From positions 1-64,000 of the forward strand of contig NZ_LFXL01000030.1 in NCBI RefSeq assembly GCF_001270745.1: a DNA stretch of 64,000 nt. Direction: 5' to 3'. Below the pieces are notes generated by a model, which saw only the letters and a program-made list of their open reading frames with translations, was not told the origin of the DNA and searched no databases. The translations under genes were made by a program, and so were the position numbers. The DNA comes from Jiangella muralis. Lineage in GTDB: Bacteria > Actinomycetota > Actinomycetes > Jiangellales > Jiangellaceae. Shown here in pieces: positions 34,579 through 55,148 of the stretch. Position 1 is the first letter of the stretch. Every line of letters starts with the position of its first letter.

Positions 34579-36570
34579 TCAACGGCGCCGGCTGGCGAAC
34601 TCCACGTTGACGTCAGCGCGCGCGTCGGCCAGCACGAAGCTGTACGACGTGGTCGTGTGCGGCTGATGGATCTTCAGGTAGCGGTCGGTCACCGCGAGGC
34701 CGTCGAACCGGTGCACCACCCGGCCGTCGACCACGCGGGAGCTGAACGACCAGCCGGTGATCTCGGTGTAGGTCTCGTTGTCCGGGCTGCTGAACAGCCG
34801 GTAGTCCGCGCCGGTGAGCCGGGTCGCGGCATCCCGGTCGCGCAGTTCGACGGCGCTGATGCCGTGGGCGGCCGGGATGCGGACGTCCAGGCCGAGCGAG
34901 CGGGCCCGGTAGTCCAGCGCCAGGGACGCGGGCGCGCAGGCCCGGTCCCAGCCGTAGACGTGCCGGGTCTCCGGTGCGGTGTCCAGTTCGGCGAACCCGA
35001 CCCGCCACGGCCGGCTCGGCGGCGGCCCGCTCAGTTGCAGCACCGATCCGTTGCCGACACCGGCCGCGGCCAGGGTGTCCGACCGGTCCAGGGTCCGGCC
35101 GTCCAGGGTCAGCCGGAGGCCGGGGCCGGCGCAGGACAGGCCGGCGGCGGTCGCATCGATCACGGCGCCGACGGTGGTCGTCGCCGGGTGGCTGACCTTG
35201 CGGCTGGCGAACGGCCAGGCCCACTGGTCCCGGTCCGCGCGGTCGACGAAGAACGTGGGTGTCGTCTCCGCGGTCGCGGCCGCGGCGTCGGCCTGCGCCT
35301 GGCAGGTCGCGGCGTCCGAGGCGTCCTCGACGACGTTGGCGACGACCTTCGACGGCTGCCCCGGCAGGAAGACCTGGAACAGCACGAGCAGCCGGTCGTC
35401 GGAGAGCCGCAGGAAGTCCGGCTCGCCGGTGGCGGCACCCAGGTTCGTCGCGCCGGACGGGTCACGCAGCCGCACCTTGCCGGTCCACGTCACGCCGCCG
35501 TCGAAGGAGGTGTGCAGGGCGGCCTGGCCGATCCGGGTGCCCGCGGCGTCGAGCTCGCGATGGCCCATGATCAGCTTGGCCTGGCCCTCGGCCAGCCGGT
35601 CGGTGCAGGGCGCGTACGTCAGCGACAGCGCCTCCGCCTGCTGGCCGGTGGCCACCGGCGCCGTCCAGGTCGCGCCGGCGTCGGACGAGTAGGACAGGTA
35701 CACCTGGGCGCGGTTCGGGCCGACCCCCGTGGCATAGCGGACCACCGCGACGATGCGGCCGTCCGGCAGCTCGTGCAGGGCCAGCTCGTTCGCGCCGCTG
35801 GTGTAGTTGGCGCTGTGGAACGGCGGGAACTGCGGCGGGTTGTTGGGGTCGTAGGCGATCGTCCGGTAGTCGGACCAGGTCTGGCCGCCGTCGAAGGAGC
35901 GCAGCACGCCGGAGCGCCAGCGCATCGGGTCGGTCTCCCACCCGTCGACCAGCTCGAGCGCGCCCCAGATCGGCAGCAGCAGGGTGCCGTCGTCCAGTTC
36001 GAGGATCCGGCTGCCGCCGACGTGCGCCTCGCGGATCGGGATCGGCAGCGCGACCGGCTCGTCGCGCCCCGTCCAGGTCTGTCCGCTGTCGGTGGACCGC
36101 GCCACGAACAGCACCGACTCGCGGTTGTTGTAGTTCGTGTGGTTCACCGCGTCGTTGTACGGCAGCAGGATGGTGCCGTCGGACAGCGTGGCGATGCCGC
36201 GGGTGGCCGAGATGCTGCCGCGCGGGCCGAAGAGCCTCGGCTCGGCCACGACCTCGGACGGTCCCCAGGTCCGGCCCTCGTCGGTGGACCTGATCATCCG
36301 CAGCTGACCACCCGGGTGGGCGTCGCCGGAGGTGTTGAACGCGGCCAGCAGGTCGCCGTTGGGCGCGCGGGTGAGCGCGGGGCGCTGGGCCGGCAGCGGC
36401 GCGGGCTCGTCCGGGAAGGTCTCCGGGCCGGTCACGTCCCAGGCGTCGACGACACGCAGCGCCGGGTCGGGCGCCTCGACGGCATCGGCGGCGATCGGAG
36501 CGGGCGCGGCACCGGCGAGCGCGAGCGCCACGCCGGTCGCCAGCGCGAGAAGAGCGGGCGAACGCGTCAT
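34579..36570 (-). CDS. Secreted Asp-box sialidase-like protein with beta-grasp-like and discoidin-like segments
   Basis: 663 residues. Signal peptide 1-28. A six-bladed sialidase-type propeller at about 40-420 carries Asp-box motifs STDEGRTW, STDSGQTW, SFDGGQTW, SSDAGATW and SFDGGVTW, plus RPALTRAPNGDLL at the position of the first active-site arginine. Residues about 460-513 resemble a ubiquitin-like beta-grasp (DGRTLDRSDTLAAAG, then GSVLQLSG). Residues 520-663 are one copy of the discoidin-like module (LALDYRARSLGLDV ... RYLKIHQPHTTTSYSF). Whether it is a true exo-alpha-sialidase or cleaves another sugar cannot be told. ATGA overlap with the sialidase-like gene upstream. Confidence 0.85.
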   Translation of the reverse strand: MTRSPALLALATGVALALAGAAPAPIAADAVEAPDPALRVVDAWDVTGPETFPDEPAPLPAQRPALTRAPNGDLLAAFNTSGDAHPGGQLRMIRSTDEGRTWGPSEVVAEPRLFGPRGSISATRGIATLSDGTILLPYNDAVNHTNYNNRESVLFVARSTDSGQTWTGRDEPVALPIPIREAHVGGSRILELDDGTLLLPIWGALELVDGWETDPMRWRSGVLRSFDGGQTWSDYRTIAYDPNNPPQFPPFHSANYTSGANELALHELPDGRIVAVVRYATGVGPNRAQVYLSYSSDAGATWTAPVATGQQAEALSLTYAPCTDRLAEGQAKLIMGHRELDAAGTRIGQAALHTSFDGGVTWTGKVRLRDPSGATNLGAATGEPDFLRLSDDRLLVLFQVFLPGQPSKVVANVVEDASDAATCQAQADAAAATAETTPTFFVDRADRDQWAWPFASRKVSHPATTTVGAVIDATAAGLSCAGPGLRLTLDGRTLDRSDTLAAAGVGNGSVLQLSGPPPSRPWRVGFAELDTAPETRHVYGWDRACAPASLALDYRARSLGLDVRIPAAHGISAVELRDRDAATRLTGADYRLFSSPDNETYTEITGWSFSSRVVDGRVVHRFDGLAVTDRYLKIHQPHTTTSYSFVLADARADVNVEFASRRR

Positions 36571-37727
36571 CGGGTTCCTCCCAAGCGCAGGGTGTTCCAG
36601 GCCAGGAACCGGCCTCGGCCGGGCGCGTAGCTGTAGAAGACGGTGAGCACGGAGCCGTCGGCGAGATCGGCCATCGCCGGGTAGCCGCACTGGTACTCCG
36701 CCGTGTGCTGGTAGCCGTGCGGGTCATGCAGCGGCAGCGGCGCGGACCAGGAACCGCCGGCATCCCGGCTGACCCGCACCTCCACGCCCGGCGGCGTCGG
36801 ACCGCCCTCGGGCGCGAACCGCCGAGTGGCCAGCAGGATCGTCCCGTCCGCCGCGCGGTGCAGCAGCGGCGACATCCCGGCGAAGCCGATCAGCTCCGGC
36901 GTCGTCCAGGTGGCGCCGTCGTCGGCCGACTCGGAGCGGAACAACTGCATGGTGTCGTCACCGCCGACGCCCTGCTGGCGCAGGACGGCCAGCAGCCGGC
37001 CGTCACCGGTGGGGACCACCGTGGTCTCGGTGAAGCCGTCGATCGGGCTGTGCGGGCGGAAGTCAGGGTCAGCGGCGCGGGCGACATCCGGGTTCCCGTC
37101 GGCGCCGAGACCGCCCTCGGCCGGCGTCGCGTACGCGCCGGCCAGCCGGGCGTCCGGGTCGTAGCCGATGGTCGGGCCGACGGACCATTCGTGGCCGCCG
37201 TCGGCGGACTCCAGCAGCGCCGACCGCCACCGCTCGGCGACGCTGCGCTGACCCCAGACGGGCCAGAGCAGCCGGCCGCCGGGCAGCTCGATCAGCCGTC
37301 CGTAGACGCACGGCCCGTGGAAGCCGAGGTCGATCGGCGCGCCGCCGGTCCAGGACCGGCCGCCGTCGGCCGAGCGCAGCAGGTGCAGGCTGATGACCCG
37401 GCCGCCCACGCCCTCCCCCGGCGTCCAGCGCACGCCGTTGTACGGCAGCAGGACGGTGCCGTCACGCAGGGTCGTCAGACCGACGGCGTTGAGCACGGCA
37501 TCGAGGCCGTCCGCCGGCTCCGCGACGGTGTGCGGCGGCGACCAACTCTGGCCGCCGTCAGCGGACCGTACTACGCCGACGGTGCCGCCCGGCCAGCCGT
37601 CGGGCACCGTGGAGTAGCTCGCCAGCAGCTCGTCGCCGGCCCAGGTGAGACCCGGGAACATGGCCGGCACGGCGTCGACGACGACACCACTCCCGGTGAC
37701 CTCCACCTCAGACGTCAGGGCCGTCAT
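36567..37727 (-). CDS. Asp-box sialidase-like protein, no signal peptide
   Basis: 386 residues. Propeller with Asp-boxes SADGGQSW, SADGGRSW, SADGGHEW, SADDGATW and SRDAGGSW. Unlike the secreted members it has no signal peptide and no accessory module, so it would act in the cytoplasm on an imported fragment, unless exported by another route. ATG 37727 overlaps the lyase stop (TGATG). The mix of secreted and intracellular propellers in one operon fits stepwise breakdown of an oligosaccharide (inference). Confidence 0.82.
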   Translation of the reverse strand: MTALTSEVEVTGSGVVVDAVPAMFPGLTWAGDELLASYSTVPDGWPGGTVGVVRSADGGQSWSPPHTVAEPADGLDAVLNAVGLTTLRDGTVLLPYNGVRWTPGEGVGGRVISLHLLRSADGGRSWTGGAPIDLGFHGPCVYGRLIELPGGRLLWPVWGQRSVAERWRSALLESADGGHEWSVGPTIGYDPDARLAGAYATPAEGGLGADGNPDVARAADPDFRPHSPIDGFTETTVVPTGDGRLLAVLRQQGVGGDDTMQLFRSESADDGATWTTPELIGFAGMSPLLHRAADGTILLATRRFAPEGGPTPPGVEVRVSRDAGGSWSAPLPLHDPHGYQHTAEYQCGYPAMADLADGSVLTVFYSYAPGRGRFLAWNTLRLGGTR

Positions 37728-43301: not shown

Positions 43302-46300
43302 ATGGCTCAGCCGTCGCAGCACGTCAGCCGCCGCTCGTTCCTGGCTCTCTCCGCCACCGTGGGCGCCGGCGCACTACTCCCGTCCCGGATCGCGACCGCC
43401 GCGACGCCACCCGCGGCCGGCACCGCGCTCGGGGCCGCCATCGGGTATGCCGATGCCGACTTCGCCGCGCCGCGATCGCCGCTGGGCAGCTGGGGTGAGC
43501 ACCTGAAGGTCGCGCTCGACCACAATCGGCGCAGCGTCGGCGCCGACCTGGGCTCCGTCCAGGACCTCAACGCCATCGAGCTCGCGAGGGACCTCGCGAG
43601 CGGCGACACCCGGCTGCCGGCCGCGATCGGCCTGCTCACCAATGACGCCGCACCGGCGACGGGCGCCTTCGCCAACTTCTCGGTGACCACCGCCGCCGCG
43701 CTGGACTTCCAGCGTCGCAGCCTCGGGGTGGACACCTTCGGCGCCGCCACCGTCCGGCGGGTCGAGCTGGTCGCCCGGGACGCCGCCACTCGGCTGACCG
43801 AGGCCGACTACACGCTGTGGACCAGCCAGGACAACGTCACCTACCAGCAGCTGACCGGCTGGTCCTTCACCGCGAGCAGCGAGGGTGGACGCGCCGTGCA
43901 CACCTTCGGCGGGTTCGAGGTGCAGGCCCGCTACCTCAAGGTGCACACGCGCTACGCCGACTCCGCGTTCACCTTCGTGCTGCAGGACCCGCCCGCCGAC
44001 GTCCGGGTCCACGGCACCGCCCCGCCCCCGGCCGCCGGCCCGGCGCACCGCCTCGGCCGCCGCGACGTGTCGGTCTACGTCAGCGATGACAACGCGACGT
44101 GGACCAAGGTCGGCGGCGTCGAACTGGTCGACGCCGGCGCCAGCCTCTGGCTGTACGGCTTCCGGGCTCGTGGCCGCTACGTCAAGGTGCACTGCCACCG
44201 GGCCGAGGTCGCCGGCTGGACCTTCACCCTGACCGATCTCCAGACCGGGGTGCGGGTGCACCGCCTCCCGGCGCACACCTTCGTCGGAGCCGGCGGCGGC
44301 TCCTGGAGCCACCGCACGCAGATCCGCATCCGCAACCCCCACCACCGGTCGCTGCGCGACCGCGCCGCTCACGTCAGCTTCGCCGACCTCGGCACCGAGG
44401 CGCTGATCGCCGCCGGACGGCTCGAGCCGGACCTGCGCGACCTCCGCTTCGCCACCCGCGACGGTGCCGAGCTGCACGCCTACGCCGACGCCACGGGCGT
44501 CCACATCCGCATTCCGGAGATCGGCGCCCGGCGCTCGGTGCTGATCTACGCCTACAGCGGCAACCCGGCGGCCGCCAACCGCGTCATCCACGACGGCGGC
44601 GCGTTGCAGGTCGAGTACGGCCGCCGGACGCTGCTGGAACAGCAGGGCATGACCCACCCGGACGGCCCGGCCTGGGGCGAGGGCATCAAGGTCGTGCGGC
44701 TGCCGAACGGCACCATGATGGCGGCGGCCGCGGCCGGGTCCGCCCAGAGCATCCACGCCCGCTTCAGCACCGACGGCGGCTGGACGTGGTCGGAGCTGGA
44801 ACGCATCCTGCCGCCGCTCGACGTGCCCAAGACCCGGACGGCCGGCCCCGGCGGCTTCATCGTCGACCCGCGGACCGGCGTGCTCAGCTTCTTCTTCCTG
44901 GTCGCCACCGCGTACACCCCGACCGGCGACTTCATGGACCCGGAACAGAACGAGGTCCAGCAGTGGATCGCCCAGGCGGAGACCTACACCGGCGACGGCC
45001 GCCCCGTCTTCGGTACGCCCCGCCGCATCCCGCTGCGCACCGTCGGCACCGACCAGCCGGTGAGCTGGGGGCTGGCCTACGCCAACGGCATCGTCACGCG
45101 CGCGGGCAGCCACCTGTACCCGATGGCGTACATGATCCGCTCCGACGGGACGTTCGCCAGCAACGTCATCCGTTCCACCGACGCTGGCCGCACCTGGGTG
45201 CAGAGCACCAGCGAGCTGACCCTGCCGGACACGTTCGGCTTCGAGAAGGGCGTCACCGAGGTCGCGATCAGCGAGCTCGGCGACGGCCGGATCCTGCTGC
45301 TCGCCCGGCAGCAGGCGCCGAAGCGGCACTACCTCACCGCCAGCTGGTCCGCCGACGACGGGCGCACCTGGACGCCGGTCACCGACAGCGCGATCCTGTC
45401 CAGCAACACCGCGCCGGGCCTCTTCCCCGACTCCAGCGACGGCCAGGTGCTCACCTGGTCCGGGCACAACGCCTTCGGGCAGACCAGCTACTACCGGAAC
45501 AACCTCACCGCCGCCTACACCGACGACGACGGCGAGAGCTGGCACGGCTACCAGGACCTGCTGGCCGGATCGGCGCTGTCCACGCCGGGATGGGCGCACA
45601 TCAGCGAGGTCCGCACCGCCGTCAACGCGGACTCCTGGGCCGCCGCCGGGACCGACCGGATGTTCGCATGGACCCGCCCGTCGAAGCCGGCCCAGCTCAT
45701 GCTGGTCGAGGACTTCGACGCGTTCGTGCGCGACACCCACGGTGCGCTGGACGTCATCGCGCACCGCGACACCGCCGGCGCCGCCAACGGCACCGAGCTG
45801 GCCGCGCACCGATGGTGGCGCACCACCCGGACCGGGGCGCTGGACCTCGCCGTCGGCGCCCGGACGCACCGGCAGGCGGTCCGGCTGCGGGCCGCGCCGC
45901 AGGGCGAGGCCGGGGCGTCTCGCCTCTTCCCAGCTGTGCGGCAGGCGCGGATCAGCTTCGGGCTGCGCAGCTCGCAGCTCGCCGGCGGACTGCACCTGTG
46001 CCTGCAGGAGGGGTTCGCCGCGCATCACAACGCCCACGGCACAGTGCTGTCGCTGGTGCTCGGGCCCGACGGCGAGCTGCTGGCCACCAGTGACGACGTC
46101 TTCGGGACCTTCCCCGACATCGGGCACGCCAACCTCGACGCCGACCCGGCCATCGGCAACCTGATCGCGCTGGGGCTGCACCAGCTCGTCGCGATGGACT
46201 TCCAGCACCGCAGCGTCGGCGCCGACCTGTTCGAGGTCCGCGAGGTCACCGGCGTCCAACTGGTCGACAACGACCTGATCGGCACGGGTGCCGGAAACCG

Positions 46301-46814
46301 GGTCAAGCCGGAGGACCTGAGCGTCTGGACCTCCGACACCAACCGCGGCGACTGGCAACGGGTCGAGGGCTGGAGCGGCAGCAAGGACGGCGCGGTCATC
46401 ACCCTCGCCGGCCCGGCCGTGCGCGCCCGCTACGTGAAGGTCGCGCACCCGTACGCCGACAGCGCGTTCACGCTCGCCAACGACGAGCAGCGCATCATGC
46501 GCGTGCTCCCGGACGGCAACGACGAGCAGGTCTTCAGGCCGCTGGAGGTCCCGACCCGGCTCACCCCCGGCGAGTGGCACGCCATCGTCGTCGATCTCGA
46601 TCTGCCCGGCGGCACCGTCACCGTCAGCGTCGACGGCACCCGGCGGGCCACGCTGCCCCCGCTGCACGCGGCCGAGGTGGTCACCCACCTGCTGCTCAGC
46701 ACCGGCGCCGCACCGGCCGGCGAGATCAGGCTGGACGAGCTGATCGTCCAGGACACCGCCCTCGGCCTGCCCGAGCCGGCCGGCGTCGGCCCGACGACCG
46801 CTGTCCCCCGCTGA
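43302..46814 (+). CDS. Secreted multidomain Asp-box sialidase-like protein (nested modules)
   Basis: 1170 residues. Tat signal RRSFLAL at 10-16. A discoidin-like module is split in two (about 45-105 and 252-322) by a second copy at about 106-250. Then DUF2341 (about 332-430: SWSHRTQIRIRN to IYAYSGNPAAANRV), a sialidase-type propeller (about 440-805; STDGGWTW, STDAGRTW, SADDGRTW, TDDDGESW) and a LamG/concanavalin-like domain that is itself interrupted by a third module copy at about 940-1070 (MDFQHRSVGADL ... ARYVKVAHPYADSAFT). The modules probably anchor the enzyme on a glycan. ATG 43302 follows GAGG. Start of a four-gene secreted series under the shared operator. Confidence 0.85.
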   Translation: MAQPSQHVSRRSFLALSATVGAGALLPSRIATAATPPAAGTALGAAIGYADADFAAPRSPLGSWGEHLKVALDHNRRSVGADLGSVQDLNAIELARDLASGDTRLPAAIGLLTNDAAPATGAFANFSVTTAAALDFQRRSLGVDTFGAATVRRVELVARDAATRLTEADYTLWTSQDNVTYQQLTGWSFTASSEGGRAVHTFGGFEVQARYLKVHTRYADSAFTFVLQDPPADVRVHGTAPPPAAGPAHRLGRRDVSVYVSDDNATWTKVGGVELVDAGASLWLYGFRARGRYVKVHCHRAEVAGWTFTLTDLQTGVRVHRLPAHTFVGAGGGSWSHRTQIRIRNPHHRSLRDRAAHVSFADLGTEALIAAGRLEPDLRDLRFATRDGAELHAYADATGVHIRIPEIGARRSVLIYAYSGNPAAANRVIHDGGALQVEYGRRTLLEQQGMTHPDGPAWGEGIKVVRLPNGTMMAAAAAGSAQSIHARFSTDGGWTWSELERILPPLDVPKTRTAGPGGFIVDPRTGVLSFFFLVATAYTPTGDFMDPEQNEVQQWIAQAETYTGDGRPVFGTPRRIPLRTVGTDQPVSWGLAYANGIVTRAGSHLYPMAYMIRSDGTFASNVIRSTDAGRTWVQSTSELTLPDTFGFEKGVTEVAISELGDGRILLLARQQAPKRHYLTASWSADDGRTWTPVTDSAILSSNTAPGLFPDSSDGQVLTWSGHNAFGQTSYYRNNLTAAYTDDDGESWHGYQDLLAGSALSTPGWAHISEVRTAVNADSWAAAGTDRMFAWTRPSKPAQLMLVEDFDAFVRDTHGALDVIAHRDTAGAANGTELAAHRWWRTTRTGALDLAVGARTHRQAVRLRAAPQGEAGASRLFPAVRQARISFGLRSSQLAGGLHLCLQEGFAAHHNAHGTVLSLVLGPDGELLATSDDVFGTFPDIGHANLDADPAIGNLIALGLHQLVAMDFQHRSVGADLFEVREVTGVQLVDNDLIGTGAGNRVKPEDLSVWTSDTNRGDWQRVEGWSGSKDGAVITLAGPAVRARYVKVAHPYADSAFTLANDEQRIMRVLPDGNDEQVFRPLEVPTRLTPGEWHAIVVDLDLPGGTVTVSVDGTRRATLPPLHAAEVVTHLLLSTGAAPAGEIRLDELIVQDTALGLPEPAGVGPTTAVPR
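43617..44051 (+). repeat. Discoidin-like module inserted within another copy of the same module
   Basis: Codons about 106-250 of the 43302 gene. The flanks join to one continuous module when compared with the paralogue at 49138 (DTRL + GRRDVSVYVSDDNATW against LSRLNSRDLALYVSNDNAAW). The insert itself (TTAAALDFQRRSLG ... ARYLKVHTRYADSAFTFV) is closest to the N-terminal module of the 52185 protein (TTAAVALDYLRRSL). About 435 bp, in frame. Confidence 0.75.
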
Positions 46815-46842: not shown

Positions 46843-49113
46843 ATGACCGATGTGACCCGCCGTGGACTGCTGAAGGCCGCCGGAGTGCTCGGTGCCGGGG
46901 CCACGCTCAGCGCCGCCCCCGCGGTAGTGGGAGGCCCGGCCACGCCATCCGCCGCCGCGGCGCCCGTCAGACCGGACGGACGCCCGATCGAGCTCGGCGA
47001 CCGGCTGGAGCTGATCGCCGGGACGTCGACCGTCGATCATCTGGACGGCGCCGCGTTCCGGCTGCACCAGCCGGTGCGCCGCGAGGTGGCGATGACCACC
47101 GACCGGCCGTGGGAGGGCAGCGCCTGCCACTACCGGCACGTCTTCAGGGACGGCGACACGTACCGGATGTACTACACGGCGCTGGACTACAACGTCGGCG
47201 GCGGCAGGGTCGACATCCCGCATCCGAGCCGCGTCGCGATGGCCGAGAGCACCGACGGGCTCACCTGGAGCCGGCCCAGTCTGGGCCTGGTCCAGGACGG
47301 CGGCAGCACGGACAACAACCTCACCGCCGGCACCGGTGACGGCCACGCCTTCGTGTTCAAGGACACCAGGCCGGACACCCCGGCCGACGCCCGGTACAAG
47401 GGCATCGAGCTGGCCGACCGGGCCACCGCCATCTACGCGCTGAAGTCGGCGGACGGCACGACGTTCACCCGGATGAGCGGCACGCCGATGATGACCTGGG
47501 GCCCGTCGAGCAGCCACGGCCTGGTCAACATGGCCTTCGACACCCTCAACGTCGCGTTCTGGGACCCGTCGGCCGAGACGTACCGGCTCTACCTGCGCTA
47601 CTACCACGACCGGGCGGAAGACGGCGGCACGTACCGCGGCACCATGGTGTCGACCTCGGCGGACTTCCTCACCTGGACCACGCCGGTGCCGCTGGAGTAC
47701 CCCGGCTCGCCCGCGCCGGAGGAACACCTCTACACCAGCAACGTCGTCCCCTACTACCGATCCCCCGGCGTCCTCCTCGGCTTCCCGATGCGCTACGTCC
47801 AGCCGCAGGGCTGGCAGGAGTCGCACTTCCGCCTCCCCAACCCGGAGCATCGCCGGGAGCGGGCGCTGGCCAGCGAGCGCTATGGCACCGCGATGACCGA
47901 CACGCTGTTCATGAGCAGCCGGGACGGCGTCGTCTTCGACCGCTGGGACGAGGCGTTCATCCAGCCCGGCCCCGGCACGGAGAACTGGAAGTACGCCGAC
48001 AACAGCACCGGCTGCGGCATCGCGGTCACCCCGTCCCACATCCACGGGGCGCCGGACGAGCTGTCCGTCTACGCCACCGAGGGCTACTGGACCGGTGACG
48101 AGCTGGACGTCGTCCGCTACACCCTGCGCGTCGACGGGTTCGTGTCGCTCAACGCACCTCGCTCCGGCGGCGAGGCCGTGACGAAGGCGGTGCGGTTCAT
48201 CGGGGACCAGCTGGTCCTCAACCTGGCCACCTCGGCCGCCGGGCACGTGCGGGTCGAGGTGCAGAACCCGGCCGGGACGCCGATACCGGGCTTCGGCCTG
48301 GACGAGTGCGATCCGCTGTTCGGTGACGACCTGGCCCGGGTGGTCTCGTGGCGAGGCGGCGACACCGACCTCGGCTCGCTGGCGAGCCGCCCCGTCCGGC
48401 TGCGGTTCGCCATCAACGACGCGGACGTGTACTCGTTCCGGTTCCGGGCCGCCATCACCTTCGACAGCACGAAGACGCAGATCACGGCGTACCACCAGGA
48501 CGGCACGCTGACCACGGACCAGCGGGACCGGCTGCTGGCACACCTGTCGGACGCACAGAGCAGCGCGGAGCAGGGCCAGGCCGAGGAGGCCGGTCAGGCC
48601 CTCGACGACTTCGCCGAGGTGGTGCGGGAGATCCCCGACGACGCCGCCCGGGACGTGCTGGCCACCGCCGCCGCGGAGCTGCGCCGCATCGTCCGGGAAC
48701 TGACGGCCGAGCCGTGGCCCACCCGGTACGGCTGGCTGGGCAACGACGTCGATCCGGCGACCGGGAACCTGGAGAACCTCGGACTGTCCACGTCGCTGAT
48801 CGCGCTGGACTACCGGAACCGGAGCGTCGGTGCGGCGTTCTGGGAGCCGGTGACCATCACCGCGCTGACGCTGCGCGACGTCGACGGCAGCACCCGGCTC
48901 GCCGCCGGGGACCTCTCGGTCTACGTCAGCGACACCAACGACGGCGACTGGCGCCGGGTCGAGGGCGTCCAGGTCGCCCGGATCTCCAACGGCTTCACCT
49001 TCACCGGGCTCGACGTGACCGCCCGCTACGTCAAGGTCGTGCAGCCCTACGCCGACGACGCGTTCACCTTCACCAACCAGGTGGCCCGGATGCTCGAGGT
49101 CACCACCGCCTAG
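46843..49113 (+). CDS. Secreted five-bladed-propeller hydrolase (GH32/GH43-like) with FIMAH-like and discoidin-like domains
   Basis: 756 residues. Tat signal TRRGLLKAAG at the N-terminus. Residues about 45-545 resemble the glycosyl hydrolase family 32/43-like proteins of secreted glycan degraders: YRHVFRDGDTYRMYYTALDY, MAESTDGLTWSRP, GTMVSTSADFLTWT, MSSRDGVVFDRWDEAFIQPG and a C-terminal beta-sandwich. About 549-620 is FIMAH-like (DGTLTTDQRDRLLAHLSDAQSSAEQG), a small helical domain found in bacterial surface hydrolases. A discoidin-like module ends the protein (632-756). Lies 28 nt after the previous gene, with GGAGGAG before the ATG. Confidence 0.78.
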   Translation: MTDVTRRGLLKAAGVLGAGATLSAAPAVVGGPATPSAAAAPVRPDGRPIELGDRLELIAGTSTVDHLDGAAFRLHQPVRREVAMTTDRPWEGSACHYRHVFRDGDTYRMYYTALDYNVGGGRVDIPHPSRVAMAESTDGLTWSRPSLGLVQDGGSTDNNLTAGTGDGHAFVFKDTRPDTPADARYKGIELADRATAIYALKSADGTTFTRMSGTPMMTWGPSSSHGLVNMAFDTLNVAFWDPSAETYRLYLRYYHDRAEDGGTYRGTMVSTSADFLTWTTPVPLEYPGSPAPEEHLYTSNVVPYYRSPGVLLGFPMRYVQPQGWQESHFRLPNPEHRRERALASERYGTAMTDTLFMSSRDGVVFDRWDEAFIQPGPGTENWKYADNSTGCGIAVTPSHIHGAPDELSVYATEGYWTGDELDVVRYTLRVDGFVSLNAPRSGGEAVTKAVRFIGDQLVLNLATSAAGHVRVEVQNPAGTPIPGFGLDECDPLFGDDLARVVSWRGGDTDLGSLASRPVRLRFAINDADVYSFRFRAAITFDSTKTQITAYHQDGTLTTDQRDRLLAHLSDAQSSAEQGQAEEAGQALDDFAEVVREIPDDAARDVLATAAAELRRIVRELTAEPWPTRYGWLGNDVDPATGNLENLGLSTSLIALDYRNRSVGAAFWEPVTITALTLRDVDGSTRLAAGDLSVYVSDTNDGDWRRVEGVQVARISNGFTFTGLDVTARYVKVVQPYADDAFTFTNQVARMLEVTTA

Positions 49114-49137: not shown

Positions 49138-52100
49138 ATGTCCCAGCCCATCGCCCGCCGCACCTTCCTCGCCCTGTCCGCCACCACGATGGCCACCGCG
49201 GCGCTGCCCGCCGTCACGGCCGGCCGGGCCGCCGCCGCGCCGACGGCGCTGGCCAGCACCAACGGATGGACAGCGACCGACGTGAACCCGTTCGCGTCGT
49301 CGCTGACCGGCCTGGGCGCCGCCTCCCGGCTGGCGCTGGACTACGACCACCGCAGCGTCGGCGCCGACCTCGGCAGCGTCAAGGCGTTCACCGCCGTCGA
49401 GATCGTCCAGGAGAGCACGCTGTCCCGGCTGAACAGCCGCGACCTGGCGTTGTACGTCAGCAACGACAACGCCGCCTGGGAACGCGCCGACGCGGAGCAC
49501 GTCGACCTGGGCGGCAGCACCTGGCACTACCTCGGCACCGCGCGCACCGCCCGCTACGTCAAATTGCACTCGCACCGGGGCGACACCACCGGCTTCACCT
49601 GCGTCATCACCGACCTCCAGGCCGGCCTGCGGGTGTACGACCTCGGCCCGCACGAGTTCGTCGGCGGCAACGGCGGCAGCTGGGCGTACCGCACCCCCGT
49701 CGTCATCACCAACGCGAATCCCGCGACGTTGCGGGACCGGGCCGCGTTCCTGTCCTTCCAGACGCTCGGCACGGCCGCGCTGATCGCCGCGGGCAAGCTC
49801 GCGCCGGACCTGCGCGACCTGCGCATCGCCGACGCCTCCGGGCGGGAGCTGCACGCCTACTCGAACTCGTTCGGCGTGTACATCCGGGTCCCGCAGATCG
49901 CCGCCGGTAGCTCGGTCACCGTCTACGCGTATTCCGGCAACCCCGGCGCGACCAACCGGATCGACCGGGACACCGGCGCCCTGCAGGTGCAGTACGGGCA
50001 CCGGATCCTCCAGAGGCAGCCGGCCTCCGCCGACGCGATCAAGGTCGCCCAGCTGCCCAGCGGCCGGATGATCACGGTCTCGACCGCCCCGAGCCTCGGC
50101 GGGATCAACGCCCGGTACAGCACCGACGGGGGCCGGAGCTGGGGCGCGCTGGAGACGTTCAAGGCGTTCACCGGGGCGCCCGGCGCGAAGGGCGAGGGCC
50201 CGCAGGGCCTGCTCTGGGACCCGGTCCGCGGCGTGCTCACCTTCTTCTTCCGGATCTCCTTCGCCTACACCGAGGGCGGCGACTTCACCGACCCGGCGCA
50301 GAACAACGTCCAGACCTACGTCATCCAGGCGAGCTCGTTCACCGCGACCGGACGGCCGGTGTGGGGCACCGCACGGCACGTCCCGCTGGTCAACCAGGCC
50401 ACCGGGAGCCCGGTCGCCTGGGCGCTGTCCTACACCAACCCGATCCGCACGTCGTCCGGCGCCTACCTGCACGCGATGTCGTACATCGTGCGGCCGGACG
50501 GGACTTTTGTCAGCAACGTCATCCGGTCTGCCGATGGCGGGCTCACCTGGACCCAGAGCATTGACGAGCTGGCCCTGCCCGGCCAGTTCGGCTTCGAGAA
50601 GGGCATCACCGAACCGGCCATCGCCGAGCTCGGCGACGGATCGATCGCGATCCTGGCCCGGCAGCAGCTCGGCCGGAAGTCCTACCTCGCCGCCAGCCGG
50701 TCCATCGACGACGGCGTCACCTGGAGCGCCGTCACCGACAGCACCGTGCTCTCCAGCAACACCCAACCGGCGATGTTCCCCGGCACCGCCGCGGGCAGCC
50801 ACGTGCTCACCTGGTCCGGGCACAACGGGTTCAGCCAGACCAGCTACTACCGGAACAACCTCACCGCGGCGTACAGCGACGACGACGGCGCCAGCTGGCA
50901 CGGCTACCAGGACCTGCTCGGCGCCACCGAGCTGTCCGCGCCCGGCTGGGCAGCCGTGACCGACCTGCGCCAGGTGCAGAACGCGGACTCCGCGCCGTCC
51001 GGGACCGGGGACCGGCTGTTCGGCTGGATCACCCCCGGCGACACCCCGAAGACCATGCTGGTGGAGGAGTTCGACCGCTACGTCCGGGACAGTCAGGGCG
51101 CGCTGGACACCGTCAACTACCGCAAGGCCACTGGCACGGCCAACGGCACCGAGCTGGCCGACTGGCGCTGGTGGCGCTCCAGCCGGACCGGCACCCTCGA
51201 CTTCATCACCGGGCAGCGGGCCAGCCGCCGCGCGGTCCGGCTGCGGTCGTCGGCGAACGCCGACGCGAGCGCGTCCCGGCTGTTCCCGGCGATCCGCCGC
51301 GGCTACGTCCGGGCCGCGATCCGGCTGACGGCCAACGGCGGCGGCTTCCGGCTGTGCCTGCAGGAGGGCTTCTCCGACTCGGACAACGCGCCGGGAACGG
51401 CGCTGTCGCTGCTGGTCACGCCGTCCGGCGAGGTGCGGGCCACGACCTCGGACACGTTCGTCACCACCGCCGACATCGGGCACCAGAACGACGACACCAC
51501 TCCGGCCGACGGGCGGCTCATCGCCCTCGGCCAGTACGGCGCCGTCGGGTTCGACTACCAGAACCGCAGCCTGGGCGCGGACCTCTACACGACCCGGACG
51601 GTCTCGTCCATCGAGGTGGTCGACAACGACCTCGTCGGGCCGGCCGGGAACCGCCTCGATCCCAGCCAGCTGCGCATCTGGCGGTCCTCGGACAACGCGG
51701 CCTGGACCGAGGTGACCGGGTGGACCGGTGTCGAGACCGGCTCGGTGATCACCCTGTCCGGGCCGTCGTTCAGCGCACGCTACGTCAAGGTGTCCCAGCC
51801 ATACGGCGACACCGCGTTCACCTTCGCCAACGAGCGGTCACGCATCCTGCGGGTGCTGCCCGACCTCGGCAGTCCCCAGGCGTTCGCGCCGCTGACCACC
51901 CCGACCAGCCTGACCACGGGGAGTTGGCACCAGCTGTTCGTCGACGTCGACCTCCAGGGCGGCGCCATCGCCGTCTCCGTCGACGGCACGCTGCGGGCCA
52001 CCCTCCCCCTGGTCCACCCAGCGCAGGTGGTCAGCCACCTGTTCCTCGCGTTCGACGCGGCGTCGACGGCCGGTGACGTGGCCGTCGACGAGCTGATCGT

Positions 52101-52164
52101 GCAGGACACCGCCGGCGGGATGCCCGCGGTGAGCAGCGTCGGCACCACCGTCCCCGTCCCCTGA
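49138..52164 (+). CDS. Secreted multidomain Asp-box sialidase-like protein (paralogue of 43302)
   Basis: 1008 residues. Tat signal ARRTFLALSATT. An uninterrupted discoidin-like module (about 40-165), DUF2341 (about 178-275), the propeller (about 290-640; STDGGRSW, SADGGLTW, SIDDGVTW, SDDDGASW) and a LamG-like domain interrupted by a module at about 782-905. It is co-linear with the 43302 protein except that it lacks the nested N-terminal copy. Long stretches of near-identical DNA between the two (for example around 45452 and 50810) show a recent tandem duplication or gene conversion. Confidence 0.85.
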   Translation: MSQPIARRTFLALSATTMATAALPAVTAGRAAAAPTALASTNGWTATDVNPFASSLTGLGAASRLALDYDHRSVGADLGSVKAFTAVEIVQESTLSRLNSRDLALYVSNDNAAWERADAEHVDLGGSTWHYLGTARTARYVKLHSHRGDTTGFTCVITDLQAGLRVYDLGPHEFVGGNGGSWAYRTPVVITNANPATLRDRAAFLSFQTLGTAALIAAGKLAPDLRDLRIADASGRELHAYSNSFGVYIRVPQIAAGSSVTVYAYSGNPGATNRIDRDTGALQVQYGHRILQRQPASADAIKVAQLPSGRMITVSTAPSLGGINARYSTDGGRSWGALETFKAFTGAPGAKGEGPQGLLWDPVRGVLTFFFRISFAYTEGGDFTDPAQNNVQTYVIQASSFTATGRPVWGTARHVPLVNQATGSPVAWALSYTNPIRTSSGAYLHAMSYIVRPDGTFVSNVIRSADGGLTWTQSIDELALPGQFGFEKGITEPAIAELGDGSIAILARQQLGRKSYLAASRSIDDGVTWSAVTDSTVLSSNTQPAMFPGTAAGSHVLTWSGHNGFSQTSYYRNNLTAAYSDDDGASWHGYQDLLGATELSAPGWAAVTDLRQVQNADSAPSGTGDRLFGWITPGDTPKTMLVEEFDRYVRDSQGALDTVNYRKATGTANGTELADWRWWRSSRTGTLDFITGQRASRRAVRLRSSANADASASRLFPAIRRGYVRAAIRLTANGGGFRLCLQEGFSDSDNAPGTALSLLVTPSGEVRATTSDTFVTTADIGHQNDDTTPADGRLIALGQYGAVGFDYQNRSLGADLYTTRTVSSIEVVDNDLVGPAGNRLDPSQLRIWRSSDNAAWTEVTGWTGVETGSVITLSGPSFSARYVKVSQPYGDTAFTFANERSRILRVLPDLGSPQAFAPLTTPTSLTTGSWHQLFVDVDLQGGAIAVSVDGTLRATLPLVHPAQVVSHLFLAFDAASTAGDVAVDELIVQDTAGGMPAVSSVGTTVPVP

Positions 52165-52184: not shown

Positions 52185-55148
52185 ATGACCAGGCTCTCGC
52201 GACCACGCTCGATCGTTGCGCTGCTGCTCGCCACGCTCACCACGCTGGCCGCCGTCGCCGTGACGGCGCCGGCCTCCAGTGCGGCCGATGCCGAGGACGA
52301 GCGGCTGACCGCGAGCTTCGCCGTCCTCGGCCCGGACCCCTATCCCGCGACCGGCCGGATCGGCGGCGCCTTCAGCACCACCGCTGCCGTCGCCCTGGAC
52401 TATCTACGTCGCAGCCTGGTGGCCGACCTGGGCACGGTCTCGGCCGTCGACCGGATCGAGCTCGTCGACCGCGACGCCACCAGCCGCCTCACCGCGTCGG
52501 ACTACACGCTGTGGAGCAGCCGCGACAACCAGGCCTACCAGCAGCTGGACGGCTGGACGCTGCAGACCCGGCAGCAGGGCGGCCGGCTCGTGCACGAGTT
52601 CACCGGGCTGTCCGCCGAGGCTCGCTACGTCAAGATCAACACCCGGTACGACGACACCGCCTTCACCTTCGCGGTGAACAACCCGGTGGAGGACGTCCAC
52701 CTCTTCGGCACCGCCGGCGAACCGGACCCCGGCGCGGCGCTGGACGTGGTCGACTCCTGGAAGGTGACCAGCGAGGCCACCTACCCGGACGTCGAGCACC
52801 CGGACACGATGTCGGCCTTCCGCCCGGCCATCGCAGAAGCGCCCAACGGGGACTTCCTGCTCACCTTCAACACCTCCACCGACGCCAACCCCGGCGGTGA
52901 GATCCGCCTGATCCGGTCGACCGACCGAGGCCGCACCTGGAGCCCGTCGGAGGTCATCGCCGGCCCGAGTGACCGGTACGAGAACGGCAGCATCGCGTCG
53001 TCGCGCGGCATGACCACCCTGCGCGACGGCACGATCGTCATGACCTACGGCGAGGCCGTCAACCACACCCGGTTCAACAACCGGGAAGGCGTGAAGTTCG
53101 TCGCCCGCTCCACCGACAACGGCCACACCTGGGAAGGCACCGACGAGCCGATCGAGTTCCCGGTGCCGTTCCGCGAGCAGTTCGACGCCGGCGGCCGGAT
53201 GATCGAGACCGCGGACGGCACCTTGCTACTGCCGGTCTGGGGCACCCGGGAGCTCGCCGACGACTGGGAGACCAACCCGCGGCGCAGCGAGTCGGGTGTG
53301 CTGCGCTCCTTCGACGGCGGCAGGACGTGGACCGAGTTCTCGGTCATCGGTTACGACCCGCACGACCCCGTACACTCGCCGCCGTTCTACCCGTACGTGT
53401 TCGGCGCCAGCGCGACCGAGTTCGCCCTGCAGCAACTGCCGAGCGGCCGCATCGTCGCCGAGATCCGCTACGAGAACGCCGTCGACCCGGTCCGCTGGCA
53501 GCTCTACCGCACCTACTCCGACGACGACGGGGCCACGTGGTCGGCGCCGGAGCCGGTCGGCTACGTCGCGCCGGCGTACTCGTTCGCCTTCGCGCCGTGC
53601 ACCGATGAGCTGGCCGGCGGGCAGACCAAGCTCGTGCTCGGCGCGCGGGGCATCACCCGGCTCGGCAAGGCCATCATGGCGGTGTCCTTCGACGAGGGCG
53701 TGACCTGGCAGGACCCGTTCCCCCTCGAGCACCCCGACGGCAACGACTTCTACGGCACCCTCGGCGGCGAGCCCGACTTCCTCCGGCTGGACGACCGCCG
53801 GGTCCTCGTCGTCTTCCAGGCGTCCGACGACGACCGGCCGTACATCCCGCCGGGTGACCCGGGCAAGCCGTGGCACATCATGGCCAACGTCCTCGAGGAC
53901 GCCACGCCCGACGAGTGCCGGGCGCAGGCCGCCGCGGCCGGCGAGCGGCAGGAGAGCAGCCCGAACGTCTTCGTCCACCGGGCCGACCGCGCCGAGTGGA
54001 CCTGGGCGCTGTCCGCGAAGAACGCGGTCCAGCCGGCCGGCACGACCGTCGGCGAGTTCGTCGCGACCCAGGCGGGGGCGTTGAGCTGCCGTCCCGACCA
54101 GCCGCTGCGACTGCGCGACGAGGAGAGCCGGATCCTCGATCCCGGTGACACGTTGGCCGAAGCGGGCGTCCGCAACGGCGACTCCCTCGAGCTGGCCGGC
54201 GCGGAGCCCACGGCCCGGCCGTTCCGCATCGGCGCGTCCGAGCTGGACGTGTCACCAGCCACCCGGCACGTCGCGAACTGGGACGACGCCTGCGCACCCA
54301 CCCCGATCGCGCTGGACTACCGGTCCCGCGGCCTGGGCCTGGACGTGGCGATCCCGGCCGGCGAGGTGATCTCCGCGCTGGAGCTGCGTGACAGCGCCGG
54401 CACCACCCGGCTGAAGCAGGCCGACTACCGGCTGTGGACGAGCCCCGACAACGTGCACTTCACCGAGGTGACCGGCTGGTCGTTCACGTCCGGCGTGGAG
54501 GACGGCCGGATCGTGCACCGGTTCGGCGACCTCGCCGTCACCGACCGGTACCTCAAGGTGTCGCACCCGTACACCGACGCGGCGTACACGTTCGTCCTGG
54601 ACGATCCGCGTGAGGACATCTCCCTCGAGTTCGCCGCGCGGGCCTGCGACACCGTCGTCACCGGGAGCGTGACCGGGCCGGTGAGCATCGACGGCGACGG
54701 CACCACCTGCGTCACCGGCGCCACCATCGCCGGGCCGGTCACCGTCGAGGCCGGCGCGTCCGCGTCGGTGCGCGACAGCCGCATCACCGGGCCGCTGACC
54801 TCCGGCGGCGCCGCCGCGATCTCCGTCTGCGACTCGACCCTGACCGGGCGGGTCGCGGTGAGCGGCAGCACCGGCCCGGTGCTGATCGGCCAGGCCGACG
54901 GGCACGACTGCGGGCCGAACACGATCACCGGCCCGGTGAGCCTGGATGCGAACACGTCGACGATCCGGGTGGCGGGCAACCGGATCGTCGGGGCGGTCAC
55001 GCTGACCGCCAACACGTTCGCGTCCTCGGCCTACCTCGGCGGCAACCGGATCATCGGGCGGCTGAGCTGCGGCGACAACACGCCGGAGATCGACGGGGAC
55101 GACAATGTCGTCACCGGCCGCAGGAGTGGTCAGTGCGCCGAGCTGTGA
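52185..55148 (+). CDS. Secreted sialidase-like protein with two discoidin-like modules, beta-grasp-like segment and C-terminal beta-helix
   Basis: 987 residues. Sec-type signal (1-34, ending ASSAADA). Module A at about 36-180, propeller at about 185-560 (STDRGRTW, STDNGHTW, SFDGGRTW, SDDDGATW) with FRPAIAEAPNGDFL, a ubiquitin-like segment at about 619-673 (DPGDTLAEAGVRNGDSLELAG), module B at about 680-820 and, from 820, seven TGPV-type turns of 19-23 residues that read as a small beta-helix. Architecture is that of the 34579 protein with module A and the beta-helix added. AGGAG lies 11 nt before ATG 52185. Last of the secreted series. Confidence 0.85.
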   Translation: MTRLSRPRSIVALLLATLTTLAAVAVTAPASSAADAEDERLTASFAVLGPDPYPATGRIGGAFSTTAAVALDYLRRSLVADLGTVSAVDRIELVDRDATSRLTASDYTLWSSRDNQAYQQLDGWTLQTRQQGGRLVHEFTGLSAEARYVKINTRYDDTAFTFAVNNPVEDVHLFGTAGEPDPGAALDVVDSWKVTSEATYPDVEHPDTMSAFRPAIAEAPNGDFLLTFNTSTDANPGGEIRLIRSTDRGRTWSPSEVIAGPSDRYENGSIASSRGMTTLRDGTIVMTYGEAVNHTRFNNREGVKFVARSTDNGHTWEGTDEPIEFPVPFREQFDAGGRMIETADGTLLLPVWGTRELADDWETNPRRSESGVLRSFDGGRTWTEFSVIGYDPHDPVHSPPFYPYVFGASATEFALQQLPSGRIVAEIRYENAVDPVRWQLYRTYSDDDGATWSAPEPVGYVAPAYSFAFAPCTDELAGGQTKLVLGARGITRLGKAIMAVSFDEGVTWQDPFPLEHPDGNDFYGTLGGEPDFLRLDDRRVLVVFQASDDDRPYIPPGDPGKPWHIMANVLEDATPDECRAQAAAAGERQESSPNVFVHRADRAEWTWALSAKNAVQPAGTTVGEFVATQAGALSCRPDQPLRLRDEESRILDPGDTLAEAGVRNGDSLELAGAEPTARPFRIGASELDVSPATRHVANWDDACAPTPIALDYRSRGLGLDVAIPAGEVISALELRDSAGTTRLKQADYRLWTSPDNVHFTEVTGWSFTSGVEDGRIVHRFGDLAVTDRYLKVSHPYTDAAYTFVLDDPREDISLEFAARACDTVVTGSVTGPVSIDGDGTTCVTGATIAGPVTVEAGASASVRDSRITGPLTSGGAAAISVCDSTLTGRVAVSGSTGPVLIGQADGHDCGPNTITGPVSLDANTSTIRVAGNRIVGAVTLTANTFASSAYLGGNRIIGRLSCGDNTPEIDGDDNVVTGRRSGQCAEL

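Follow-up and report, generated by a model that had tools for sequence, protein, structure and literature searches.

The locus analysed here, in a stretch of 64,000 nucleotides from Jiangella muralis (hereafter the window), raises the question of whether a protein module lies inside another module of its own family and, if so, how it came there. The gene concerned, named 43302 after its start, as are its neighbours, encodes a Tat-type signal (weak match), a nested pair of F5/8C modules, a part collinear with the weak DUF2341 match of 49138, a BNR propeller and a LamG-like domain with one module, in this order. Its features were as follows.

43302..46814, + strand: gene of the nested protein (1170 aa)
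43437..43619, + strand: host module, N half (profile 4-62 of 138)
43620..44021, + strand: inserted complete module (profile 3-136; discoidin fold in the model)
44043..44264, + strand: host module, C half (profile 58-134; closest to the first module of 49138)
45684..46115, + strand: LamG-like domain, first part (below the Pfam cut-off; by homology with 49138)
46113..46523, + strand: third module, within the LamG-like domain (profile search; surrounding domain by homology with 49138)
46521..46781, + strand: LamG-like domain, second part (below the Pfam cut-off; by homology with 49138)

Four proteins (43302-46814, 46843-49113, 49138-52164 and 52185-55148) were scanned with Pfam. F5/8 type C was above the cut-off (28.2) in the whole proteins of 43302 (41.4 bits), 49138 (38.8 bits) and 52185 (31.1 bits), as was BNR_2 (cut-off, 31.4) with 58.1, 47.5 and 63.8 bits, respectively. 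In the scan of the whole 46843 protein no F5/8 type C was listed; this protein has a FIMAH domain according to Pfam and one module at the C end according to our own module profile. Compared with PF00754/PF22633, the whole 43302 protein is alike in its F5/8C match above the cut-off and in the attached sialidase-like propeller, whereas the modules here form a divergent subfamily, three of the four single modules tested being under the Pfam cut-off (insert, 19.0 bits; 46843 module, 15.3 bits; one module of locus L057 from another genus, 15.7 bits) and one, the first module of 49138, at it (28.2 bits), and one module is nested in its own family. Residues 225-276 of 49138-52164, between the F5/8C module and the propeller, gave a weak match to DUF2341 (19.6 bits; cut-off, 23.4), and a weak YukD-like match precedes the C-terminal module in 52185-55148 (24.9 bits) and 34579-36690 (19.9 bits), neither reaching the cut-off of 27.

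Two module profiles were used, the first made from seven window modules with the host left out, and the second (A2) from 21 diverse modules. Both gave a first half, a full module and a second half in 43302, followed by a C-terminal full module, and the per-genome E-values with the 21-module profile were 5.2e-10 for the host N half, 1.0e-55 for the insert and 1.1e-12 for the host C half. The host halves complement each other at profile positions 58-62 with an overlap of 4-5 of 138 positions, and the host keeps 6 of the 7 positions that are invariant in A2. Since the profile searches match 43302 as half, full module and half, a complete F5/8-type-C module splits, as judged by sequence alone, a second module of its own family, and 43302 likewise falls under the A1-B-A2 definition of domain insertion (one domain in two segments with a complete other domain of at least 30 residues between them). 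The interval originally predicted, 43617-44051 (residues 106-250), corresponds to the module plus a C-terminal linker.

The following features of the window and its module-bearing genes were used for comparison.

49138..52164, + strand: paralogue with an uncut host module, the empty-site comparison (pairwise alignment)
49258..49638, + strand: uncut counterpart of the host module (profile search, tree)
51466..51867, + strand: module interrupting the LamG-like domain of 49138 (profile search, joined-flank Pfam test)
48721..49110, + strand: C-terminal module of the 46843 protein, after the FIMAH domain (Pfam, profile search)
52314..52715, + strand: N-terminal module of the 52185 protein, in the same clade as the insert (identity, profile search, tree)
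54219..54641, + strand: C-terminal module of the 52185 protein, in the same larger clade as the L057 host (profile search, tree)
34588..35010, - strand: C-terminal module of another BNR protein (profile search)

In a local alignment (BLOSUM62), 43302 and 49138 were collinear all the way from the signal to the C-terminus, interrupted by one large stretch absent from 49138, of the size of the insert, and by few short gaps, so that removal of the insert does restore continuity with the paralogue, as had been claimed. The split profile matches in 43302 and the uncut module of 49138 together confirmed the original prediction that one module interrupts another of the same family. Alignments in which at least four single modules were mixed with the 49138 rows placed all or part of the 49138 module in the insert and were rejected. 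With none, one or two module rows, or with two whole BNR proteins, the 49138 rows spanned the insert, the outcome being aligner-dependent; the spanning alignment was preferred, being the one consistent with both the profile search and the pairwise alignment.

For the tree, 48 modules were extracted, one duplicate arising from overlapping loci and one identical module were dropped, and the resulting 46 rows, with split hosts joined, were analysed. The 43302 host grouped with the first module of 49138 (support 100/98). When the halves were scored alone, 49138 was clearly closest to the host C half (165 versus 107 for the next module type), and the host N half (about 54 columns) scored 85 with the best 49138-type row and up to 96 with other modules; because this half-score does not single out 49138, the affinity of the N half to 49138 rests on collinearity. 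The insert clustered, with moderate support (86/81), with modules from the N-terminal end of BNR proteins, that of 52185 and that of a protein encoded in G010, another genome of the genus, and was 51-62% identical to the N-terminal modules of neighbouring BNR genes. It is nearer to the first module of 52185 (51% identity) than to its own host (31%), as claimed at the outset. The donor type proposed there, a module of a neighbouring gene transferred in frame, agrees with this grouping, but the nearest relative (62%) was found not in 52185 but in that G010 gene, which lies two positions upstream of the orthologue of 43302.

Over 142 codons, the insert and the 52185 module shared 65% of bases, with a longest exact run of 16 bases, and their 70 identical residues used the same codon in 76% of cases versus 64% expected from codon usage. 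The high-identity recombination tract for which these two DNA segments had been proposed for comparison was not found between them. An old transfer from a neighbour-type gene would fit these sequences, and a recent conversion would not. An Arg-Leu pair encoded by CGG CTG is present at the left junction and recurs both in the loop of the uncut host module of 49138 and immediately ahead of the N-terminal module of 52185; a further Arg-Leu, written CGC CTC, comes after the insert. In the 62% relative, Arg-Leu is absent from the corresponding place. These codons may mark the crossover, but they are no more than suggestive, as six bases match easily in GC-rich DNA.

Residues 40-330 of 43302 were modelled with AlphaFold2 from 37 rows, 34 of which inform the insert only and three the host (mean pLDDT, 75.5; pTM, 0.59). 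Block-mean pLDDT was 85-97 in the insert (model residues 71-200; 69 for residues 61-70) and 38-84 in the host, with stretches below 50. A full-length model of 43302, built from six full-length rows, had a pLDDT of 39.5 and was not used. The insert was modelled as E69-73 and E101-118, then E131-136, E143-145, E149-155, E158-164, E168-177, H191-194 and E195-200, and the host, at low to moderate confidence, as E7-11, E39-56, the break, E217-222, E229-231, E235-238, E242-259, H274-277 and E278-282. At that confidence the order in the host is similar to that in the insert, one long strand (E242-259) standing where the insert has two, and the break falls between the strands corresponding to E101-118 and E131-136 of the insert. 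Structural comparison gave at least 50 matches at Z 8.9-10.4, with 100-127 aligned residues and rmsd 2.7-4.1. Almost all of these covered model residues 61-205, and the sialidase module 2bzd was among the matches listed (Z 9.0). Foldseek gave 32 matches at E ≤ 0.001, with titles chiefly of discoidin/CBM-domain proteins, many of them two-domain chains with rmsd above 10. Searching the PDB with the module profile gave no match at E 0.01 and four weak matches up to E 10, and with the first module of 49138 as query the PDB yielded a single, unrelated match. On the model, the insert is a discoidin-type beta-sandwich, and with its similar strand order the host may close into one such sandwich. The arrangement named in advance as contradicting nesting, two complete tandem domains with no broken fold, was not seen, though confidence in the host part of the model is low to moderate. 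In the discoidin fold the N- and C-termini are expected to lie side by side, and adjacent termini are expected of any insert in a loop.

The full-length nested protein was found in 3 of 12 genomes of the genus, own genome included, the others being G010 (90%; a one-contig genome) and G001 (89%), and the un-nested paralogue was present in the same three genomes (89-90%). Across the three species pairs, dN/dS (Nei-Gojobori) was 0.32, 0.36 and 0.32 for the insert, 0.45, 0.39 and 0.19 for the host N half, and 0.24, 0.24 and 0.35 for the host C half. The insert is under purifying selection. Given three species with the nested protein and dN/dS below 1, the nested form therefore predates their split and is maintained. 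Further module-bearing BNR genes lie upstream of the 43302 orthologue in G010 (L048:13366-18925 and L049:1672-9748) and are lacking there in the window; the N-terminal module is identical in two of these G010 genes, which points to recent duplication.

Among 22 genomes of the order, which all belong to one family, 5 had the module (E 1e-4), with 51 match rows. Eight of these rows are half modules making up four split hosts, which brings the number of modules to 47. One of them, at G003:C111:134598-134930 (L055:616-2967), is incomplete or very divergent (profile 27-133) and has the longest branch of the tree. Three of the split hosts are the 43302 orthologue set, and the fourth lies in G016, a genome of another genus.

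L057:8456-12019, - strand: open frame of 1187 codons for the G016 protein, nested at residues about 560-1100

With A2, this protein matches profile positions 4-81, three complete modules and then 82-136, no position of the host being missing or doubled; the seven-module profile gave 4-83 and 84-131 for the same host. The L057 host was 47% identical to the C-terminal module of 52185, both of its halves scored best with the same C-terminal-type module of G010, and it grouped with the C-terminal module of a G010 BNR gene (94/93). Its three inserts are 46-56% identical to one another and form one clade (97/81) beside the 46843-type module (95/89). Because hosts, donors and insertion sites all differ, the two nestings are most simply taken as independent, and self-nesting probably arose twice; the L057 case is known from one genome, at the sequence level. 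Self-nesting in a loop, as originally predicted, is thus supported by the uncut paralogue, the two nested orthologues, the element order of the model (with the host at low to moderate confidence) and this case in a second genus.

Beyond the order, a phylum sample (396 genomes; E 1e-6; up to 10 candidates scored per genome) gave the module in the own genome only. In a class sample (393 genomes; E 0.001; up to 10 candidates scored per genome), seven genomes had a match, two of these weak. A scan of genome contigs gave two weak loci out of 87 matching stretches. The weak loci L093 and L094 had partial, divergent matches and no nesting. Plasmids gave no module match at E 1e-10. In the samples searched, strong matches were accordingly confined to the five genomes of the order (of 22) named above.

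The extra module copy that had been placed inside the LamG-like domain of both 43302 and 49138 was examined by joining the flanks after removal of the module. For 49138, the joined flanks matched Laminin_G_3 (PF13385) with 28.3 bits (cut-off, 27.6) over residues 94-191, across the join at 138/139, and the intact protein gave no LamG family up to E 10 in Pfam; as read from this match, the C-terminal module of 49138 interrupts a LamG-like domain. The joined flanks of 43302 gave Laminin_G_3 with 18.9 bits, below the cut-off, over residues 152-211 and not across the join at 144/145, and the intact protein gave a weak Laminin_G_2 match (13.7 bits). This part of the claim thus stood for 49138, but for 43302 the proposed interruption derives from homology with 49138.

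Ten neighbouring frames were scanned and comprised two Gfo/Idh/MocA oxidoreductases, a short-chain and a zinc-type dehydrogenase, an amidohydrolase, a DHDPS-family protein, two further BNR proteins, an ABC permease and one frame without a family. The locus reads like one for glycan utilisation. Domains of this type commonly bind sugars, and each extra module most likely adds predicted glycan binding to a secreted enzyme. The fold of the modelled insert is like that of CBM32-type modules, among them the one in the bacterial sialidase structure 2bzd (Z 9.0), and glycan binding is predicted for it.

Taken as a whole, these data are very probably best explained by the in-frame insertion of an F5/8C module into a loop of a module of the same family, between two core strands. 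The donor would have been the N-terminal module of a BNR-propeller gene nearby in a tandem array, and the insert would have entered by illegitimate recombination, for which such an array would offer many related in-frame donors. The host would still fold because the ends of the module lie side by side, the insert sitting on the loop as on a stalk. The extra module is predicted to provide a second glycan-binding site on a secreted sialidase-like enzyme and may raise avidity, being held by two links and not by one flexible linker.

It is quite unlikely that the difference between the two paralogues reflects ordinary loss, the common ancestor of the paralogues having been nested and 49138 having shed the insert. 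Outgroup orthologues that could polarise the change were not found at strict E-value limits, with two candidates per genome scored in one search, which leaves room for such a history; insert and host fall into different module clades, so that an insertion must have happened at some time anyway. Very unlikely, too, is a decayed tandem array of three modules in series, of which the first would now lack its C half and the third its N half. Such decay would account for a short host N half that has no clear nearest relative in the 49138 module, and for a host model of low to moderate confidence, but the remnants are complementary both here, sharing those 4-5 of 138 positions, and in L057, and two unrelated cuts seldom give that; moreover, the two host halves are joined in 49138, and in the three species that retain them dN/dS is below 1 for both. 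GC-rich repeats can misassemble, yet an artefact of assembly or gene model is hardly credible, as the same architecture occurs in two further genomes, one of which is a single contig, and the frame is open with dN/dS below 1.

If insertion into a loop is accepted, self-insertion might further be a regular mode of growth in this family, copies being added through loops at one end of the host sandwich and not end to end, so that chains would be telescoped, base on tip, and would replace or extend the binding face of the host. We regard this as tentative and rather doubtful. Between the two insertion sites (profile 58-62 and 81-82) lie two strands of the model, and both sites would be at the same end of the sandwich if these strands run antiparallel. 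The module profile aligned, non-significantly, with a CBM32 (E 0.05) and with Sm-hPAF (E 0.55), an F-type lectin. By these non-significant alignments the first site may fall in a loop that carries ligand residues in such lectins.

A 2026 ECOD survey reports 48,551 domain insertions, 65.8% of them between different homologous groups and thus, by subtraction, 34.2% within one homologous group, with inserted domains that are compact and have close termini, at a median distance of 14.3 Å (PMC13114784). The present proteins resemble its A1-B-A2 insertions in that one domain is split by another; they differ in that the survey, whose main text contains neither 'self' nor 'same family', does not, in the parts consulted, single out insertion into a domain's own family or three tandem same-family copies in one host (PMC13114784). 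A literature search found no report of a self-nested F5/8C module, which is weak evidence of absence. The Plasmodium 6-Cys protein Pf41 reportedly has, by the title of the report, an unexpected intra-domain insertion (PMC4587554). Domain insertion, also between homologous domains, is already known, and repeated self-nesting, once with a tandem array, is a notable variant of it.

The loops of a common binding fold thus appear able to accommodate an entire copy of the fold, and even a tandem of three. This would guide the choice of permissive insertion sites in the engineering of multivalent binders, and would serve to test domain parsers and structure predictors built on the assumption of domains in series. 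It would also exemplify how tandem arrays of paralogues supply in-frame domain shuffling in bacteria.
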